From the IMG/VR virus record IMGVR_UViG_3300027771_001047, positions 1 to 38,069 of that record: a stretch of DNA of 38,069 nt. One strand, given 5' to 3'. The DNA is from a virus. Every line of letters starts with the position of its first letter. Position 1 is the first letter of the stretch. The notes under the pieces were generated by a model, which made no database searches, was not told the origin of the DNA, and saw nothing but the letters and a program-made list of their open reading frames with translations. Positions 20,575 to 34,161 of this stretch are shown here, piece after piece. A program made the position numbers and the translations under genes.

Positions 20575-21291
20575 ATGATTGAAGAACATAAACAAATTCT
20601 AGAACAATACTGGCAACAACACGGTAAAGAACAAAATTATAAATATCCTGATATGTTTGATCCTAAATGGACTATAACAGAAAGCGGCTGGCCGTGGTTT
20701 AAATTAAGTTCCTTAGACGACCAACCTTGGAAAGAAATGCAAGCAGAAGCAGAAGTATTATTAGAACATTTCAAACCGCACAGAGAAGACTACGGACATG
20801 GCTGGTCAAGTCTAACATTACACGGATTGAATGATGACACTCAAAGTCTTAATCAGTACAGTGATAATAGAAAAGAAACATTAGATCAACTTAGCTGGAC
20901 TTGGGTGGCAGATAGTTGTCCAGTTACTAAAAAGTTTCTAACAGATGTTTGGCCTGCAGAGTATTTAAACCGTGTAAGATTTATGTTGTTAGAGCCTGGT
21001 GGTTATATTTTACCACATCAAGACAGGCCTAGTGATCAAAAACGATTAAGTATTTGCAATATTAGTCTCAACATGCCAGAAGGATGCGAAATGGTTATGA
21101 AAGATCAAGGTCGTATACCATTTAATGATAGCGGCTCTGCTATGCTAGTAGATATTTCAAACGAACATGCAGTATGGAATAGAAGTAATAAGCCTAGAAT
21201 ACATATGATTATACATTATGAGCTAGGAAGAAGATTGCGTGATTTTTTCTACGTACTAAGAAGTAGTTATTATACGAATAGAGAACAATGA
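20575..21291 (+). CDS. Aspartyl/asparaginyl beta-hydroxylase-like 2OG oxygenase
   Basis: 238 residues. The motif LLEPGGYILPHQDRP gives His148 and Asp150, SNEHAVWNRSNKPRIHM gives His198 and the 2-oxoglutarate Arg208. This order and the PGG...HxD/E...EHxxxN....R spacing are typical of the Asp/Asn beta-hydroxylase family. The first 40 residues are Gln- and Trp-rich and may bind a partner. It opens the plus-strand run after the divergent region and overlaps the next gene by ATGA. Confidence 0.85.
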   Translation: MIEEHKQILEQYWQQHGKEQNYKYPDMFDPKWTITESGWPWFKLSSLDDQPWKEMQAEAEVLLEHFKPHREDYGHGWSSLTLHGLNDDTQSLNQYSDNRKETLDQLSWTWVADSCPVTKKFLTDVWPAEYLNRVRFMLLEPGGYILPHQDRPSDQKRLSICNISLNMPEGCEMVMKDQGRIPFNDSGSAMLVDISNEHAVWNRSNKPRIHMIIHYELGRRLRDFFYVLRSSYYTNREQ

Positions 21292-22760
21292 GAGATTATA
21301 ACAGTATTTCCGAAGGCGAAAGATATTTTAATACTAGTCAGGTAGATATTCCTGTAGGTGTTGGTATGCTTGATATTAGTAGAGATATTCCTAATCACTT
21401 TGTGCGTGAGCGTTGCTTTAGTATGACATATTGGATGATTAATCAAAGCACAAAACAAGATATTTGCGAGTATAGAGGATTTAATCACAGTGTCAAAGAG
21501 TTATTGTTAGCTAGTAAACTAGCCGGCGATAAAGTTTGTATTATATTAGCACAAGGCATGATGGCACCTAGGCTTTATAAAATTATCAATAAGACTGCAA
21601 AATACTTTAGAGAAAATCCTAACTTTTTTGTAGTAGGACACATTATGGCCAAGCAAGGCAGATATCCCGGACTACACAGACAAATGCTTATAGTTAATAT
21701 AGAAACTTGGGAACGTCTTGGTAGTCCTGACTTTTTAGGACAAGGATTTTTCTGGGACAGAGCTCCTACATATCCTAACTTTAAATTAAGTGACGATACT
21801 ATGAGTGCAGATTATACTCCAGCATGGATTAAATCTGCTGAAGGAACACAGTCTTGTGACGTAGTTGAAGACGGGTCAAACTGGATAGCACTTGCACTTG
21901 ATAATAATATAACTATAGACAATCTTGATTTTGAGATGCGCGAGTGCAAGACATTTTTATATCCTTACGAAAATCCAGACTTACTAGAACGTGCCTGGAC
22001 AAATTTACAAGACGAGTCTTTATTAGATCAGATTGAAAACTTTACTCAACGTGCTTGGTTAAGAAAATTAGGCTATCAAGAGTTTATTGAAAAAGATAGA
22101 GTATATGCGTATAACACAGAACGCCTAAGTGGAGAAGGAGTGAGAGCATCCGCTCCTATAGACAGTATCTTTTCAGCAGCAGCAGGATTTAAAACTCTGG
22201 CACTATTACGAAACAACGGCTTTCATGAGAATACAATAGTTAACTATTATGATTGGTGTGACTCTAGTATTAATTTTAAAAAGCATTTGTTAGAAACATG
22301 GGACGGAGTTGACTTTGACAAGTGGTTACTAGAACACGACTTAGAGTATAATTTTTCTAGTACATACCGCGGCAACTATTCAGAATTTTGGAACAAAGAA
22401 GTTGAAAAAGAATTTGAAAGTGCAGAAAAATTCAAAGAGCTATGGGATAGATACAGAAAATTAGAACATAACTTTTTTGTTATTGACCTAGTTAATGAGC
22501 CTGAAAAGCTTATAGCAGAAATGAATAAACAAACCGGGGTTAAAGTATTATGGACTACTAATATTTGGCCAACTATGATGTTACATTGGAACGTAGACAT
22601 GGATACAATAGAACAAAAGTATTTAAAATTTGAATCAATATTGCCTAAGGATACAGTTCTTTACGGGCAAGATTATTTGGCAAATGATTTGAAAGATAGA
22701 ATAACCAACGGTAAAACAGAAACGCATCCTAGATTCAGTACTGTTTGGAAAAAGTTGTGA
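21288..22760 (+). CDS. Large protein of unknown function
   Basis: 490 residues, cytosolic in appearance, with no signal peptide, transmembrane helix or cysteine motif. Two parts can be guessed: an N-terminal half (about 1-240) with alternating strands and helices, including ILAQGMMAPRLY, FFVVGHIM and HRQMLIVN, and a C-terminal half (about 280-490) rich in Trp, Asp and Glu. The N-terminal part is loosely like a nucleotide-sugar-binding fold, but I see no clear DxD or P-loop. It is tightly coupled by 4-base overlaps to hydroxylase-like genes on both sides, so it may be the partner or substrate-carrier of those enzymes. Confidence 0.72.
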   Translation: MRDYNSISEGERYFNTSQVDIPVGVGMLDISRDIPNHFVRERCFSMTYWMINQSTKQDICEYRGFNHSVKELLLASKLAGDKVCIILAQGMMAPRLYKIINKTAKYFRENPNFFVVGHIMAKQGRYPGLHRQMLIVNIETWERLGSPDFLGQGFFWDRAPTYPNFKLSDDTMSADYTPAWIKSAEGTQSCDVVEDGSNWIALALDNNITIDNLDFEMRECKTFLYPYENPDLLERAWTNLQDESLLDQIENFTQRAWLRKLGYQEFIEKDRVYAYNTERLSGEGVRASAPIDSIFSAAAGFKTLALLRNNGFHENTIVNYYDWCDSSINFKKHLLETWDGVDFDKWLLEHDLEYNFSSTYRGNYSEFWNKEVEKEFESAEKFKELWDRYRKLEHNFFVIDLVNEPEKLIAEMNKQTGVKVLWTTNIWPTMMLHWNVDMDTIEQKYLKFESILPKDTVLYGQDYLANDLKDRITNGKTETHPRFSTVWKKL

Positions 22761-23398
22761 AACGATATATTGAAAAGCACGACGAAGCTAATCTTGGTTG
22801 GACAGTTAAAAAACTATTTAAAGTTGATATAGATAAGTTGCGCAATTGGTATAATGATTTAGAAAACAATTATAATGACTGGAAGTTTGTTATAGGTGAA
22901 CAGCATCATATATGGCAATTTCCTATTAGTGATCCTGAAGCAAAGACAGGACATCGTTTAATGGACGATACAGCATACTATACACTTTGCTGGAACAGTA
23001 ACGAAGTTGGTCCTAAGCCATTTGAACAAGGTTGTGCTAAACCAGAGTATCGAGATGATGACAACGATCAACTTAATCCAAGAGAATGTTTTAGTGGCTA
23101 TGCACTAGACGTTGTAAATAGTTTGCCTATGCGTAGTAAGAAATGGTTAGTAACAATTCATACGCCAGGAACTAAACTAATTACGCACCAAGATAGTCCG
23201 GATAAACTCCGTGTACATATTCCTATACACACTAATGCAGATAGTAATTGGTCTATTGCTGGTGAAGAATATCACATGGAGCCAGGGTGGGCATATATAG
23301 TTAACACAACTATTCCACATAGTGTAGAAAACAAAGGTACAACAGACAGGATACATTTATATGGAAAGGTTTGGACAGATGATTGCCGTAAGTTATAG
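22757..23398 (+). CDS. Asp/Asn-hydroxylase-like 2OG oxygenase, tandem copy 1
   Basis: 213 residues from GTG 22757, which overlaps the preceding stop as GTGA; a TTG start at 22745 is also open. Iron site: LITHQDSPDK (His144, Asp146), TTIPHSVEN (His188), with TDRIHLYG providing Arg198 for 2-oxoglutarate. The stretch between them, LRVHIPIHTN...WAYIVNT, recurs almost unchanged in the proteins from 23797 and 24345, so the three are tandem duplicates. Substrate unknown. Confidence 0.83.
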   Translation: MKRYIEKHDEANLGWTVKKLFKVDIDKLRNWYNDLENNYNDWKFVIGEQHHIWQFPISDPEAKTGHRLMDDTAYYTLCWNSNEVGPKPFEQGCAKPEYRDDDNDQLNPRECFSGYALDVVNSLPMRSKKWLVTIHTPGTKLITHQDSPDKLRVHIPIHTNADSNWSIAGEEYHMEPGWAYIVNTTIPHSVENKGTTDRIHLYGKVWTDDCRKL

Positions 23399-23807
23399 TA
23401 AAAAAGATTTTGTATCTAAAATGCAAAGCACACATATTACAGATAAAACAGTTGAAGATACTAATGACTATTATATTTGTATTGATTCAACTGGCGGTCC
23501 AAACAGTAATCCGTACTTTAATGAATTTCACCCCAATGTATTAAACTTATGTTTTGATGATGTTAGTAAGGATCAAACAAACTGGGGTGACGATATAAAA
23601 GACTACTACACGGCAGTTGCACCAACACTAACACAAATCCAACATATTTCATATTTCCTTAAAGATGCTTGCGGAACAATACATGTACATTGCATGAAGG
23701 GCGAATCACGTAGTAAAGCAGTTGCAGATTATGTAAACAACACTAGATTTGAACACGACGAGAAATATGCCTATACAATTATAAGGGACACATTAGATGA
23801 GCTTTGA
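23379..23807 (+). CDS. Cys-based protein tyrosine/dual-specificity phosphatase-like protein
   Basis: 142 residues. HVHCMKGESRSKA contains the HCX5RS phosphate-binding loop (Cys105, Arg111), and an acidic FDDVSKD about 45 residues before it could give the general acid. Size and motif fit a minimal dual-specificity or related phosphatase acting on phospho-protein, sugar or nucleotide. Start: GAAAGG at 23364-23369 lies 9 bases before ATG 23379; an upstream ATG at 23361 is also open. It interrupts the tandem hydroxylase-like genes, overlapping the first by about 20 bases and the second by 11. Confidence 0.8.
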   Translation: MIAVSYSKKDFVSKMQSTHITDKTVEDTNDYYICIDSTGGPNSNPYFNEFHPNVLNLCFDDVSKDQTNWGDDIKDYYTAVAPTLTQIQHISYFLKDACGTIHVHCMKGESRSKAVADYVNNTRFEHDEKYAYTIIRDTLDEL

Positions 23808-24348
23808 TATAAAAGAAGTTGACGTAGGTATTGAATATGATAATATTAGAACTTACTATAATAGTGTTCAATCAGACTTTAAACATTTGATGTTTACTAA
23901 TGTACAAGATACTGTTGGATCAGAAAAGCATAAAATTAATGGAGTATATGGTTGGGCGATACAAAGTAATTTAGAAGATCTTACTGTGCCTTGTCCGCCG
24001 TGGAATGTACACAAAGATGGTAGTGATAATTATAGAGATACTGAACTAGTATACGGTATAATTAAACAACTTAAAGCACGTTTTAGTGGAACACGACAGT
24101 TTAGTCTTAGCGGACATCCACCCGGAACTGAAATAGCACAGCATACTGATACTGATAAGTATCTTAAAATACATATTCCTATCCTCACAAATCCAGATGC
24201 ATGGTTTGTGTTTGGAGAAAACAAATACACTTTAAAAGTAGGTAAAGCATATATAATAAATACTACACGACTACATGGTACAATTAATAATGGCACCTCG
24301 GATAGAGTACATTTGTTTTTTAAAGTACCAGCGGAGGACTTTATATGA
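23797..24348 (+). CDS. Asp/Asn-hydroxylase-like 2OG oxygenase, tandem copy 2
   Basis: 183 residues, the shortest of the three copies. Iron site: IAQHTDTDK (His116, Asp118), TTRLHGTINN (His160), and SDRVHLFF (Arg170) for 2-oxoglutarate. HPPGTEI before the first His and LKIHIPILTN after it are family signatures shared with copies 1 and 3. The N-terminal 60 residues are reduced. It overlaps the phosphatase-like gene by 11 bases and copy 3 by ATGA. Confidence 0.83.
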   Translation: MSFDIKEVDVGIEYDNIRTYYNSVQSDFKHLMFTNVQDTVGSEKHKINGVYGWAIQSNLEDLTVPCPPWNVHKDGSDNYRDTELVYGIIKQLKARFSGTRQFSLSGHPPGTEIAQHTDTDKYLKIHIPILTNPDAWFVFGENKYTLKVGKAYIINTTRLHGTINNGTSDRVHLFFKVPAEDFI

Positions 24349-25073
24349 GATTATTAAAACCTAAAGATATAACAGACGTTGATGCATTGTTTGATAGCCT
24401 AGAATGGGATATGATTGAATTAGATTTTAGCATTGATAAAGATGACTTAGAATCTTATCATAAAGATCTACGATCACGTTTACAACATCTTTGTTTTAAT
24501 TTTAATTCTAAAGAATACTTACGTCCTGATATATACGAAAGATTTCAAAAAGAAAACGCTGTAGGAAACTATGTAGGAAACGTAGGTGGGTGGAGTGTTA
24601 GTTGGCCTGTAGAACGAGATATACCATGCCCAAGTAAAACACAAGCTAACGTTTCTAAGTACCCAGAATTACAAGACCTTGATGAAGAAAAGTTCTACTA
24701 CGATTGCGTACCAATGCAAGTTTACAAATTTGGTATTCTAAATAAAATGATAGAAACCTTGTCCTTACAAGCTTTAAGACAAATACTGATAGCACTACAC
24801 CCGCCGGGGCTAAAAGTTAACACACATACTGACGGAAAGACTAGAAAACTACATGTTCCATTTCATACTAATACTGATGCAGTTTTTACTTTTGGTAAAA
24901 ACAGAGAACGCAAATATCATATGGAATTGGGCAAAGGTTACATAATTAACACACTTGTACCCCATGGTACAGAGAATCCAGGAAACACAGATCGAGTACA
25001 TTTGTTATCCAGAGTTGACGATTCATTTATGCAACCGCTTTTATCGATAAACTGCAATATAGCAGATAAATAA
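24345..25073 (+). CDS. Asp/Asn-hydroxylase-like 2OG oxygenase, tandem copy 3
   Basis: 242 residues. HPPGLKVNTHTDGK gives His161 and Asp163, NTLVPHGTEN gives His207, and TDRVHLLS gives Arg217. LHVPFHTNTD and the GY-IINT strand match copies 1 and 2. The N-terminus is about 45 residues longer than in copy 2. The gene ends just before a late-type promoter that would start a separate transcript for the propeller-like gene at 25094. Confidence 0.83.
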   Translation: MRLLKPKDITDVDALFDSLEWDMIELDFSIDKDDLESYHKDLRSRLQHLCFNFNSKEYLRPDIYERFQKENAVGNYVGNVGGWSVSWPVERDIPCPSKTQANVSKYPELQDLDEEKFYYDCVPMQVYKFGILNKMIETLSLQALRQILIALHPPGLKVNTHTDGKTRKLHVPFHTNTDAVFTFGKNRERKYHMELGKGYIINTLVPHGTENPGNTDRVHLLSRVDDSFMQPLLSINCNIADK

Positions 25074-25093: not shown

Positions 25094-26341
25094 ATGAGCA
25101 ATACATATTTTACGCAGGTATTAGACGAACCATATCACTTAGGAAATGGCGAATTTTTATCAGTAATCACTAACGGTAAAGCACGTCACGAAGGCGAAGA
25201 AAGCCGTGATTTTAATAAAGACGCAGGCGCAAGAGCAGGTTTGCTTAGAGTAAACGCTGATGAAACTACATTTGTTGACTTCTTTGACAAAAGCGATAAC
25301 GGTGATAGATACCGTGGTATTGCAGTTGTAGGTAATACAGCATATGTAATGCGTACACAAAAAGATAAAGTAGACAGCACAATTAGAGTAGCGTCAATAG
25401 ATTTAACAACTAATGAAGTTACTATGATCGAAGAAAAAGGTGTAACAGTACACGGTTCAGAAACTCCTAAAACATTCTGTGGACACTTTAACTTTGGTAG
25501 ACCAATCACAGTTGGTACTAAAGTTATTTGGCCACCAGTTATGAGTGGAATGATTATTGTGTTTGATACTGTTGCTAATACATTTACTGTACATGAAACA
25601 GGAGAAAAGTTTGCTTCTATCCATAGTGTATATGTAGAATTATTAAACGAAGTTGTGTTTTTCCCATATGGTAAAACAACTGATATGTTGTTAACACTAG
25701 ACATGACAACAAACACTATTAAAACTCACACAGCACCAACTAAAGGTGCGTTCTATCATGTTAACACTAACGGCGACAAAGCAGTTGGCGCTCCACTAAT
25801 AATGGATGAAACTACAGAATTTAACTTCTGGGTATATGATGGCGTAGACGTAAAGTCAGTTGCTTATAATTCATCTAGTACAGACGATATGGGCGGCCAA
25901 ATGGGTTTCAAATACGGAACTATGAATGGCAGTACATTAGTAACACACACTTGCTGGGAAGGTTCGAAAGCATTTGTATCACTTAATTTAGATACACTTG
26001 CAATTGATAGCTTTGAAACTAATGAGTCATTAGGTAGTAAGCCAGTTATTAATAATGGCGATGTTTACTTGTTTCCGTCAATACAAAATCCAACCATGGT
26101 AAATCCAACCACTAAAGTTTTTAAAGTTGAAGGCATGCTATTAAAAGAAGTTATGGACTTAGGTACTGCAAATATTACTTCAGGGTCAATTAACGATACT
26201 GATAGTGTTACAATGTTAGCACCTTACAAGTTTGATCTTAGTGATGCAGGCTTAGGCGGTGACATGGCTATTGTAGATCTTGATGCTAAAACATCAAAAC
26301 TTCTTCCAGTTAATTTAAGCTTAGAAACTTACAATAGTTAA
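25094..26341 (+). CDS. Third beta-propeller-like protein, probably late and abundant
   Basis: 415 residues of beta-rich repeats: a conserved turn plus strand recurs as WPPVMSG...IIVFD, FFPYGKT...LTLDM, GAPLIMD...FWVYD and YLFPSIQ, related to the 'hxYxhPhGe' blades of the two minus-strand propeller genes but more diverged. Thr-, Asn- and Val-rich composition and a hand-checked line near 43% GC resemble highly expressed virion genes rather than the neighbouring enzymes. No signal peptide is visible. A late box and strong ribosome site support production during assembly. It may be a virion or fibre-associated protein, or the target of the adjacent modifying enzymes; function is not known. Confidence 0.75.
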   Translation: MSNTYFTQVLDEPYHLGNGEFLSVITNGKARHEGEESRDFNKDAGARAGLLRVNADETTFVDFFDKSDNGDRYRGIAVVGNTAYVMRTQKDKVDSTIRVASIDLTTNEVTMIEEKGVTVHGSETPKTFCGHFNFGRPITVGTKVIWPPVMSGMIIVFDTVANTFTVHETGEKFASIHSVYVELLNEVVFFPYGKTTDMLLTLDMTTNTIKTHTAPTKGAFYHVNTNGDKAVGAPLIMDETTEFNFWVYDGVDVKSVAYNSSSTDDMGGQMGFKYGTMNGSTLVTHTCWEGSKAFVSLNLDTLAIDSFETNESLGSKPVINNGDVYLFPSIQNPTMVNPTTKVFKVEGMLLKEVMDLGTANITSGSINDTDSVTMLAPYKFDLSDAGLGGDMAIVDLDAKTSKLLPVNLSLETYNS

Positions 26342-26345
26342 GCAT

Positions 26346-27566
26346 ATGCGTATCTGCATTATAGGTGGAGGTACAACAGGCTGGTGGTGTGCAGGCTACA
26401 TGGAAAAGTTTCTTCCTAATGCTGAAATTACCTTAATTGAATCTAGCACTATTCCTATTATAGGAGTAGGCGAATCTACACTTCCGATGATTAAAACGTT
26501 CTTTGATAAGATAGGCGTTGACGAATCTAAATGGATGCCTGAGTGTAATGCTATACACAAATACGGAAATGTAAAAACTAACTGGGATAAAGCAGACGGC
26601 GAACCTTTTGCTTTTACTTTTTGGTATAATGATAACGATACATTTTCTAAATGGTACAAAGACTACGAAGCAGGTAATAAAACAAAGCATCAAATTAATG
26701 ATGACTTGTATGATAAAGAAGCATGGCGAGCAGTTGCATATCATTTAGATGCTGAAAAGGCTGGACAGTTAATTAAAGATAATTGTAAAAATGTTATCCA
26801 TAAAATAGCAACACTAGATGAATTGCCTGAAGGCTATGACTTATACGTAGACTGTACAGGATTTCGTAGACAGTTTGTTAAAGATAAAACAGAAACAGTA
26901 TACGATCATCATTTAGTAGACCGTGCATGGGTATGTCCATTTGAACAAGATAAAGATATTTCACACTATACAGAATCAATTGCAAGAGAAAACGGCTGGC
27001 AGTTTGTTATTGACTTAACAAATAGAATAGGTACAGGTTATGTATTCTCAAGTCAGCATACAACAGAAGAAGAAGCACTAAAGAGCTTTAAAGAGTACAA
27101 TGCACATAGAACTCCGTTTATGGGTAAAGAGCCTAGATTACTTAAATGGAAGCCTAATATACTAACTAACCCATGGACGGATAATGTTGTTGCTGTAGGT
27201 CTTTCTAATGGATTTATTGATCCTTTAGAGTCTAATGCATTGTTTATGACGCAGTATAGTATTACTCTATTAGTTGATTGTATTAAAAGAAATGCAAAAC
27301 AAGGAGTGTATAATAGAAGTATGCGTAACTTGTGGAAGGAAAACAGCGACTATATTCTACATCATTACATGTTAAGTAAAAGAACAGATACTGATTTTTG
27401 GAAGTATTACAGTGAGTTTGATGTTACAAAAACTCTATGGGACAATTACACTAAACGTGGTAACAAGTATACTAATTTATATCCTGATGCTATATGGGCA
27501 ACACTAGGATTATATCACGATGAGTTCGAACACTACGAGCCTAAAGATTTAGCTCTTTCTTCATAA
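26346..27566 (+). CDS. Flavin-dependent tryptophan-halogenase-family protein with altered WxWxIP motif
   Basis: 406 residues versus roughly 500-540 for classical tryptophan halogenases. The FAD-binding GGGTTGWW lies at residues 7-14, GVGEST at 40-45, the position of the active-site Lys at Lys72 (IHKYGNVKTNW), DCTGFRRQF near 169, and GFIDPLES at 289-296. The WxWxIP signature that marks halogenases reads WQFVID (218-223), followed by the conserved GTGY. It may still halogenate, or may oxidise its substrate. Starts 5 bases after the propeller gene and ends overlapping a GNAT-like gene tail to tail. Confidence 0.85.
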   Translation: MRICIIGGGTTGWWCAGYMEKFLPNAEITLIESSTIPIIGVGESTLPMIKTFFDKIGVDESKWMPECNAIHKYGNVKTNWDKADGEPFAFTFWYNDNDTFSKWYKDYEAGNKTKHQINDDLYDKEAWRAVAYHLDAEKAGQLIKDNCKNVIHKIATLDELPEGYDLYVDCTGFRRQFVKDKTETVYDHHLVDRAWVCPFEQDKDISHYTESIARENGWQFVIDLTNRIGTGYVFSSQHTTEEEALKSFKEYNAHRTPFMGKEPRLLKWKPNILTNPWTDNVVAVGLSNGFIDPLESNALFMTQYSITLLVDCIKRNAKQGVYNRSMRNLWKENSDYILHHYMLSKRTDTDFWKYYSEFDVTKTLWDNYTKRGNKYTNLYPDAIWATLGLYHDEFEHYEPKDLALSS

Positions 27567-28783: not shown

Positions 28784-30079
28784 TTATGCTTCTATAGCAA
28801 TTTGTACCCAAGCACTACCTAAGTATACTACTGTTTGCTTCTTAGTAGAAGCAACACCACTTGGATCCCATGTAGCACCGTCTGCAATAGCAATCATGCC
28901 TTGTGCTGGTGTAGTTGGTTCTGCTGTTAGTACTGCTAGTTTAGCAAATCCGTTAACGTCTAATGTAGCAAGTGGAGAATATCCAGCAGTATTAGCAATT
29001 GCCATATCGCCATTAGCTGCAATACTTGTTGCAACTAATACTGGAACACTAGCAGTGCCATTGTTATTGATCAATCTAATCATACCCTTTGCAGTATCTG
29101 TTGCTACAGTACTAGCAGGATCAATTTGGAATGTTACAACACTTGAAGGAACTAAGTTACCTGTCGATCCATCTAAGCTTCTTGCTTGAATTCCGCCTAA
29201 GTAATCACCAGCCACACCTTGTGTTGGTGTATCTAATGCTCCGTGATAACCAGTAAATGCCATTTTAAAAGCACCACCAAATCCGCTTTGTGCTAAACCA
29301 ACCATGTCAATTGGTGGACTGTTATCTACCACAGTAATTTTTAAGGCAGTGGCATCAGCATCGCCAATTGCACCAATGTTGATATTAAAATCGTTTCTAT
29401 TTCTTAGTACCCCATCAACAGCATAAATTGAACCGTTGTCAATATTAATGCGGCTATTAACGCCATCTACAAGTAATGAACTATCATCGCCAAATATACT
29501 GCCGCTTACATCGCCTACTACAAGTCCTGTATGTGTGCCAGTTGAATTACCTGTGATATCACCTGTTACGTTACCTACAAACCTAGTTGTTGCTGTAATT
29601 GTGCTACCGTTTAGTGCGTTATTATCAGTGTTAAGGATTATAGTACTGTCGTCGCCTACAATATTAATTTTGTAGTTTTGGTCTTCATTAAAGAAATCAC
29701 TAAAGCTTTGTGGTGTAAAGTTACCTGCACCGTCAGCTATTAAGATGTCACCAGGGTATAAATCACCACCGATAAACACGTTGCTTAAATCATTTAACCC
29801 TAAGCTACCTGCTCCAGAGTTATTTGCTGCAACCCACTTGCTAGTACCACTATTATATGTTAGTACTTGATTGTCTTCAGGCGTACTTATATCAGTGTCG
29901 GTAAGTAGTTGTAGCGTAGTTACACCTCCACCACCTGCTCCTGTTACAGCAACTCCACCAGCAGTAGTTCCATCGCCTGCATATAATAGCTTAGTGTCAG
30001 TTGCGAAGATTAGCTCACCCTCTAAAGGTGTTATCAGTTGACGTTGTGCGTCGGTGCCGCGTCTTAGACGTAATGCCAT
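28784..30079 (-). CDS. Tail-fibre or tropism-determinant-type virion protein
   Basis: 431 residues. The start MALRLRRGTDAQR...LEGELIFATDT...LYAGDGTT matches the short N-terminal domain seen on many phage fibre, hyaluronidase and tropism proteins (RRGT...EGE..F.TDT....GDGTT). The middle is Gly-, Asn-, Asp- and Thr-rich, with repeats of the GNVTGDITGNSTG kind typical of a trimeric beta-helix or fibre shaft. Codon usage and a TATAAATA box upstream fit a late structural gene. AGGAGT at 30087-30092 sits 7 bases before the ATG. Probably contacts the host envelope. Confidence 0.82.
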   Translation of the reverse strand: MALRLRRGTDAQRQLITPLEGELIFATDTKLLYAGDGTTAGGVAVTGAGGGGVTTLQLLTDTDISTPEDNQVLTYNSGTSKWVAANNSGAGSLGLNDLSNVFIGGDLYPGDILIADGAGNFTPQSFSDFFNEDQNYKINIVGDDSTIILNTDNNALNGSTITATTRFVGNVTGDITGNSTGTHTGLVVGDVSGSIFGDDSSLLVDGVNSRINIDNGSIYAVDGVLRNRNDFNINIGAIGDADATALKITVVDNSPPIDMVGLAQSGFGGAFKMAFTGYHGALDTPTQGVAGDYLGGIQARSLDGSTGNLVPSSVVTFQIDPASTVATDTAKGMIRLINNNGTASVPVLVATSIAANGDMAIANTAGYSPLATLDVNGFAKLAVLTAEPTTPAQGMIAIADGATWDPSGVASTKKQTVVYLGSAWVQIAIEA

Positions 30080-33078: not shown

Positions 33079-34161
33079 TCATGCTTCTTGTGCAGCTTTA
33101 ATATACTTGCCATAACGCTCATGGAATTCATCAAAACATTGCACTTCATCTGGATCAATGGGCAATGAATACTGTGTTAATGCAAGCTTGATGCCCATTA
33201 CTACTAACTCAGTATCAAAGTTATCCATTGAAAAGCGCAGGAAGTTGTTAACTTTGTCATCAAACTTCTTATCGTTCTTGTCTGATGCTTCTTTTAACTC
33301 GTAGCAAAGAGACACAGTTAGGGAGTACATTGCACTGATCTCTTTGGACTTCATCTCTTTTACTTTTCCTGCTAAGATGTCGGATGGGTTAGGCATGCTT
33401 GCGGCAACTTTACGGTGTGCCATAAACTTAAGAGCCAACCCTTCTCCAACTGCACCTGCTACCAAGTCGGTAGTAGTTGCTTCGTCTAGGTCATCGTCTA
33501 GCAATTCGCTAACAAATGTCCAAGAACGAGGTGTTGCAAATGAACGACTTGGGCTTCTAGGATCGAAGTCATATAAGTCTTTCTTTGCAAAAGTTAAGTA
33601 ACCAACAACATCTGTATTGATGTTATTAACTACCGACCACTGGAACCAGTCATCAAATGATACAGCAAGTTCTAAGTGGATAAATCTGTTTGCTAACGGA
33701 GCAGGCATTCTATAAGTAACACCTTTGTCAGCTTCTCTGTTACCAGCCGCAACAATCATTACGTTGTCTGGTAACTTATATTGCCCTACACGACGATTAA
33801 GAATTAACTGGTATGCTGCCGCTTGTACGCTAGGCGCTGCCGAGTTCATTTCGTCTAAAAATAGTACAATATGATCAAATTGAGCAGCAAACTCCTCGCT
33901 TGGAAGTTCGCTAGGTGCGCCCCACACCATTGTACCTGAATTACTGTCGAAGTATGGAATACCTTTAATATCTGTAGGTTCCCAAAGTGACAAACGAATG
34001 TCAATTAAATGTGAATTTGATAGGCTATCAGTAATCTGTTCTACAATCTCAGATTTGCCAATACCTGGTGCGCCCCAAAGAAATATTGGACGTTTCTTCT
34101 TTAGCGCATGCTTGATGCTGTTTTTTGCGCTATTTGGAGTTACTGTACGTGTATTTTCCAT
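33079..34161 (-). CDS. MoxR-type AAA+ ATPase
   Basis: 360 residues. Walker A GAPGIGKS at 30-37, Walker B VLFLDEMN at about 99-106, a sensor-type AAGNREAD near 130, and an Arg-rich RSPSRSFATPRSW segment near 195-207. The order and spacing fit the MoxR/RavA branch. It lies directly upstream of the vWA metallopeptidase-like gene, its expected partner, but with its own terminator between them. MoxR/vWA pairs remodel or activate protein complexes, often metal- or cofactor-containing ones. Whether it serves virion assembly or host takeover is not known. Confidence 0.9.
   Translation of the reverse strand: MENTRTVTPNSAKNSIKHALKKKRPIFLWGAPGIGKSEIVEQITDSLSNSHLIDIRLSLWEPTDIKGIPYFDSNSGTMVWGAPSELPSEEFAAQFDHIVLFLDEMNSAAPSVQAAAYQLILNRRVGQYKLPDNVMIVAAGNREADKGVTYRMPAPLANRFIHLELAVSFDDWFQWSVVNNINTDVVGYLTFAKKDLYDFDPRSPSRSFATPRSWTFVSELLDDDLDEATTTDLVAGAVGEGLALKFMAHRKVAASMPNPSDILAGKVKEMKSKEISAMYSLTVSLCYELKEASDKNDKKFDDKVNNFLRFSMDNFDTELVVMGIKLALTQYSLPIDPDEVQCFDEFHERYGKYIKAAQEA

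Follow-up and report, generated by a model that had tools for sequence, protein, structure and literature searches.

VirX1, the halogenase of cyanophage Syn10 (PDB 6qgm), is a proven viral flavin-dependent halogenase (FDH) that prefers iodide (PMC8407142). It has the PF04820 fold, a catalytic Lys and Glu and a length of 530 aa, and it is without the helical lid, an absence that has been linked to a larger pocket and a broad scope (PMC7948982). RebH, PrnA and Thal possess the lid, a C-terminal Trp-binding segment and the WxWxIP signature. This signature has been proposed to block hydroxylation, with the roles of its single residues unclear (PMC10696468), and some proven halogenases, among them Bmp5, reportedly do without it (PMC8407142); loss of the motif alone therefore does not mean that halogenation has been lost. 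Two bacterial enzymes of about 500 aa depart from the T,G pair at the halide site: the halogenase Xcc4156 has T,N (PMC7336383), and BrvH, a proven brominating enzyme that keeps WxWxIP, has T,S (PMC5945002). FDHs with S at the Gly position of the Fx.Px.Sx.G tunnel motif also exist (PMC7336383). QhpG has a halogenase-type fold, closest to that of CmlS, and, working with a radical SAM protein, dihydroxylates peptidyl Trp (PMC7876137).

The window analysed here, a stretch of 38,069 nucleotides of viral DNA (IMG/VR record IMGVR_UViG_3300027771_001047), holds a marine phage gene whose product is a shortened relative of the FDHs (Table 1). The product matches PF04820 with E 1e-73 (249 bits, above the curated cutoff of 21) and the PHROG family phrog_2928, 'tryptophan halogenase', with E 2e-87. 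Two viral scans gave 80 loci, and in the combined alignment 34 distinct sequences, all on viral contigs and the complete ones 389-418 aa long, make up the window's branch.

The FAD motif and the catalytic Lys and Glu of RebH, PrnA and Thal are kept in the window FDH; an earlier note on this DNA had listed the FAD motif, GVGEST, the Lys position and GFIDPLES as kept. G7, G9 and G12 of the FAD motif and V41, G42 and E43 of GVGEST are invariant (alignment A1). In the HMMER alignments, where the RebH chain numbering carries a 20-residue offset, K72 corresponds to the catalytic Lys K79 of RebH and E295, within PLES (residues 293-296), to the catalytic Glu E357. Lys occupies the first position in all 33 branch rows with letters there and in 78/78 other family members, and Glu is invariant at the second in 34 branch rows. 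F290, P293 and S296 of the tunnel motif are also kept, with its Gly replaced by A298; G is found in 14 of the 34 branch rows.

Table 1. Features of the window FDH gene and its neighbours (positions in the window).
Feature	Position	Strand	Evidence
PF05118 Asp/Asn-hydroxylase-like 2OG-Fe(II) oxygenase	20575..21291	+	E 5e-14
PF05118 oxygenase	22745..23398	+	E 3e-13
PF05118 oxygenase	23797..24348	+	E 5e-14
PF05118 oxygenase	24345..25073	+	E 2e-6
415-aa protein, ends 4 bases before FDH	25094..26341	+	no family match
PF04820 halogenase-fold flavoprotein (FDH), 406 aa, ATG start	26346..27566	+	ORF, profile, model
GxGxxG FAD-binding motif GGGTTG, residues 7-12	26364..26381	+	sequence
GVGEST, residues 40-45	26463..26480	+	sequence
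K72 = RebH catalytic Lys K79	26559..26561	+	HMMER alignments
N75-V76-K77, branch-specific replacement of RebH I82 (to Asn) and F84 (to Lys)	26568..26576	+	alignment
WQFVID, W218-D223, at WxWxIP position	26997..27014	+	alignments
FIDPLESNA, F290-A298, E295 kept, halide-site T,G to N,A	27213..27239	+	alignments
Partial AMP-binding (adenylating) protein, 224 aa	28062..28736	-	PF00501 E 1e-19
Mtd_N (major tropism determinant N-terminal) domain protein, possible receptor-binding	28784..30079	-	PF18454 E 8e-9

The family signature has lost its second Trp and its Pro, a change already reported in the earlier note, and alignment with RebH and phage homologues does not recover WxWxIP. W218-D223 lies opposite WTWKIP of RebH with no gaps, and the stretch NGWQFVIDLTNRIGTGYVFSS pairs gaplessly with a 21-residue RebH segment, so that WQFVID is no alignment artefact. 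The second Trp is Phe in 34/34 branch members, as against 3/78 other family members, and the Pro is replaced by D in 28 branch members, G in five and A in one, as against P in 70/78 of the others. Chance, misalignment and sequencing error are excluded as sources of WQFVID by the gapless alignment and by the fixation across the branch. Outside the branch, the motif reads WCYNIP in P-TIM40, and several bacterial proteins of the family carry G at the Pro position. Further changes round the tunnel had escaped the earlier note. The residue after K72 that corresponds to RebH I82 is Asn in 33/33 branch rows (2/78 others), and that corresponding to F84 is Lys in 33/33 (0/78 others). At the halide site, T359/G360 of RebH are N297/A298, with N297 found in 34/34 branch members and 18/78 others. 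The signature region and the stretch from PLES to the halide site read GWVWNIPL and PLESTG in VirX1 but GWQFVIDL and PLESNA in the window FDH.

The AlphaFold2 model of the window FDH (pLDDT 79.8, pTM 0.82, with low confidence past residue 360) agrees with PF04820-type FDH structures at Z 34-41, the closest including SttH (Z 41.5), Xcc4156 (Z 40.0) and BrvH (Z 39.8). The best Foldseek matches include Xcc4156, VirX1, SttH and BrvH, with TMq 0.76-0.80 (Z 35.6) for VirX1, and the Foldseek viral library yielded nothing beyond known FDHs and general FAD enzymes. Among the solved relatives listed, lengths are 497-550 aa except in a few distant proteins, CmlS for one, in agreement with the earlier estimate that the protein is about 100 residues short. 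Relative to VirX1 and a Streptomyces RebH-like protein, about 17-20 residues are missing after position 122, 16-19 after 157 and 19-23 after 370, together with the last 37-47 residues; against the Streptomyces protein alone, a 23-residue lid segment is absent and the C-terminus is 37 residues shorter. By alignment position, the segment lost after 370 corresponds to the helical lid of Thal (445-466). Without this lid and with much of its C-terminus lost, the protein is unlikely to act on free tryptophan, and we do not class the window FDH as a tryptophan halogenase.

To assess the history of the branch, we placed 33 of its sequences (L024, a fragment, was excluded) in a quick maximum-likelihood tree, where they are monophyletic with SH-aLRT 100. 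Their sisters (support 99) are two long viral proteins of 507-525 aa, L066 and L067, which carry GWRF; they share with the branch a Phe in place of the second Trp and an Asn where RebH has I82, and differ in their length and in having G or C at the Pro position. The next group out (support 87) is formed by the VirX1-type cyanophage FDHs, in which WxWxIP is mostly kept, and the branch falls outside this group as a separate one with support 100. Since the sisters are long and already have Phe and the Asn equivalent to N75, the change from Trp to Phe most simply arose before the protein was shortened. Intact WxW is also found in short phage FDHs of 381-415 aa (L034, L039 and L121), so the reduced length and the signature change are independent of each other; these short proteins and the long WRF sisters rule out that truncation brought about the change in the motif.

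A branch-profile scan that was limited to two short peptide patterns and covered 84,980 genomes of bacteria and archaea found only relatives of 27-35% identity, which within this scope speaks against a bacterial origin of the branch. With all its members on viral contigs, it is virus-only so far, and the phage branch that the earlier note had supposed is thus recovered, its prokaryote relatives reaching no more than about 35% identity. Within it dN/dS is 0.04-0.13, which indicates strong purifying selection and rules out a pseudogene. One contig (L061:7965-10725) carries two WQF-type FDHs in tandem, the second with GWQFKVAL and WVDPLEANG.

The branch FDHs are found in three genome arrangements. 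In the window type (A), the FDH is accompanied by three to four PF05118 oxygenases, the 415-aa protein, a 179-aa protein, the partial AMP-binding protein and an Mtd_N protein. A PF05118 gene is kept near the FDH in related contigs, the 415-aa protein adjoins it in L002 and L003 and lies one gene away in L009, and the AMP-binding gene is kept in L002, L003, L009 and L067. In arrangement B the order is a tail sheath gene (phrog_11196), an SbmA/BacA transporter, the FDH and phrog_11903, with an oxygenase about 4-8 kb from the FDH in the larger contigs. In arrangement C a protein of about 200 aa overlaps or adjoins the FDH start, and tail-fibre genes usually follow downstream on the other strand. 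This protein is predicted to have a 2OG-Fe(II) oxygenase fold (pLDDT 87.7; proline hydroxylases are its top matches, and AspH is also listed), and its single phage-record match is annotated Asp_Arg_Hydrox. A predicted 2OG oxygenase is thus encoded near the FDH in all three arrangements, and as the contigs within each are related, this amounts to about three independent observations. The branch FDH is often near tail genes, which fill much of such genomes, and we found this proximity too weak to serve as proof of a tail substrate. Some genomes also encode FDHs with intact WxW (GWCWNIPL and GWCWQIPT in G004, GWIWETPL in G008), and the branch is therefore not a mere replacement for those.

Two further observations concern these loci. 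The SbmA/BacA peptide-transporter homologue (L008:6966-7934, PF05992 E 2e-138) precedes the FDH ORF by a gap that can be as short as 58 bases; it is also present in L005-L007, L011-L021, L028, L041-L045, L049-L055 and L061, and has relatives in only 4/50,697 phage records. L067 matches much of the right flank of the window (from 30458 on) at 74-92% identity and has a different, long WRF-type FDH (L067:7986-9506) at the place corresponding to 26346-27566, which suggests gene replacement at a kept locus.

The reading we prefer, to which we give about an even chance of being right, is that of a working halogenase of the hypohalous-acid type with a remodelled tunnel, an open pocket and a substrate other than tryptophan, possibly a protein-bound aromatic group. 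Reduced FAD, bound by the GxGxxG domain, would be supplied by a host flavin reductase and would react with O2 and halide, yielding hypohalous acid, which would pass down a short tunnel to K72 and be steered with the help of E295 onto an electron-rich aromatic carbon. As judged from the alignment, the tunnel wall would be remodelled by Phe and Asp in WxWxIP, by Asn and Lys at the RebH I82 and F84 positions, and by Asn and Ala at the halide site. We favour hypohalous-acid chemistry because Lys and Glu are invariant, and a bulkier substrate than free tryptophan because the lid over it is missing; candidates would be aromatic side chains on tail proteins of the phage or on surface proteins of the host, or else a precursor in whose making the 2OG-Fe hydroxylases encoded nearby take part. 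The earlier proposal of another substrate is thus plausible, and the missing lid segment and C-terminal residues, together with the intact-WxW FDHs in the same genomes, add to it. The family and fold matches, the purifying selection, the place of a proven viral halogenase in the next group of the tree, the occurrence of replacements at the second halide-site position in the active BrvH and Xcc4156, and the nearby 2OG oxygenases all speak for this reading. Against it stand the alteration of WxWxIP at two positions, the two hydrophobic positions after the Lys that are now polar, and the fact that no partner flavin reductase was recognised by Pfam among the window proteins scanned, although the host could supply one.

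The same changes may instead point to a flavin monooxygenase of halogenase fold, a serious competitor that we nevertheless regard as rather unlikely. Because the second Trp and the Pro are replaced, a substrate could reach the flavin hydroperoxide and be hydroxylated, possibly on a protein or peptide as in QhpG. The supposed role of WxWxIP in blocking hydroxylation (PMC10696468) and the N/K pair at the RebH I82/F84 positions are consistent with this, as is the precedent of QhpG (PMC7876137), to which the window FDH is likened by description as a possible functional analogy (a protein substrate and a radical SAM partner), radical SAM genes being abundant in the window. However, the residues linked to halogenation, K72 and E295, do not vary across 33 and 34 rows respectively, Phe for Trp is a conservative aromatic replacement, and in the contigs compared arrangements B and C show no radical SAM neighbours of the window type. 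The match to the LodB-type peptidyl-Trp oxygenases (NCBIfam NF038171) is 18.7 bits against a cutoff of 400, so far below it that identity with a LodB-type maturase is ruled out.

It is rather doubtful that this virus-only branch, its tunnel switched and a 2OG-Fe hydroxylase acting as partner, modifies tail or receptor-binding proteins of the phage after translation by halogenating or hydroxylating their aromatic residues. If true, this would be a natural switch from halogenase to hydroxylase or the first halogenation of a virion protein, of which we know of no earlier case.

That the branch consists of ordinary small-molecule phage halogenases of the VirX1 kind, with a signature changed by neutral drift, seems to us quite unlikely. 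Some active FDHs do have a variant WxWxIP or none at all (PMC8407142), and P-TIM40 and the bacterial family members with G at the Pro position are in line with drift, but the change is fixed in 34/34 members, and at least three more positions round the tunnel have become fixed with it, which drift is not expected to keep. Very unlikely, finally, is a flavoprotein without catalysis on a separate substrate, whether an oxidase or H2O2 source, as the earlier note had proposed in place of a halogenase, or a binding protein: the remodelled tunnel and halide site and the shortened substrate domain would suit it, but selection is strongly purifying, the FAD motif, Lys and Glu are all invariant, and a proven halogenase like Bmp5 is itself reported to lack WxWxIP (PMC8407142).

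Neither the fold nor the existence of FDHs in viruses is new, and the novelty lies in the fixed altered signature of a virus-only branch; in the literature searched, which covered few subscription journals, we found no paper describing it. The branch makes the viral halogenases known so far more diverse than VirX1 had shown and offers a natural experiment on the role of WxWxIP, in which the motif and at least three tunnel positions have changed together while Lys and Glu are invariant, with the longer sister lineage as an intermediate state.

Elsewhere in the window, the region 218-20478 holds at least seven radical SAM genes, three of them above the cutoff for NF033640 (twitch-domain radical SAM), as well as an epimerase, a 2OG oxygenase and numerous genes without a match, and so dense an island of modification or biosynthesis genes is unusual in a phage. 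A 148-aa protein (23361-23807) contains HCMKGESRS, which by eye resembles the dual-specificity phosphatase signature. The nearest phage-record relatives of an AAA ATPase encoded on the minus strand (33079-34161), at 48.6%, belong to Pseudomonas jumbo phages of 284-288 kb in the PA5oct group, a hint that the window may derive from a jumbo phage.
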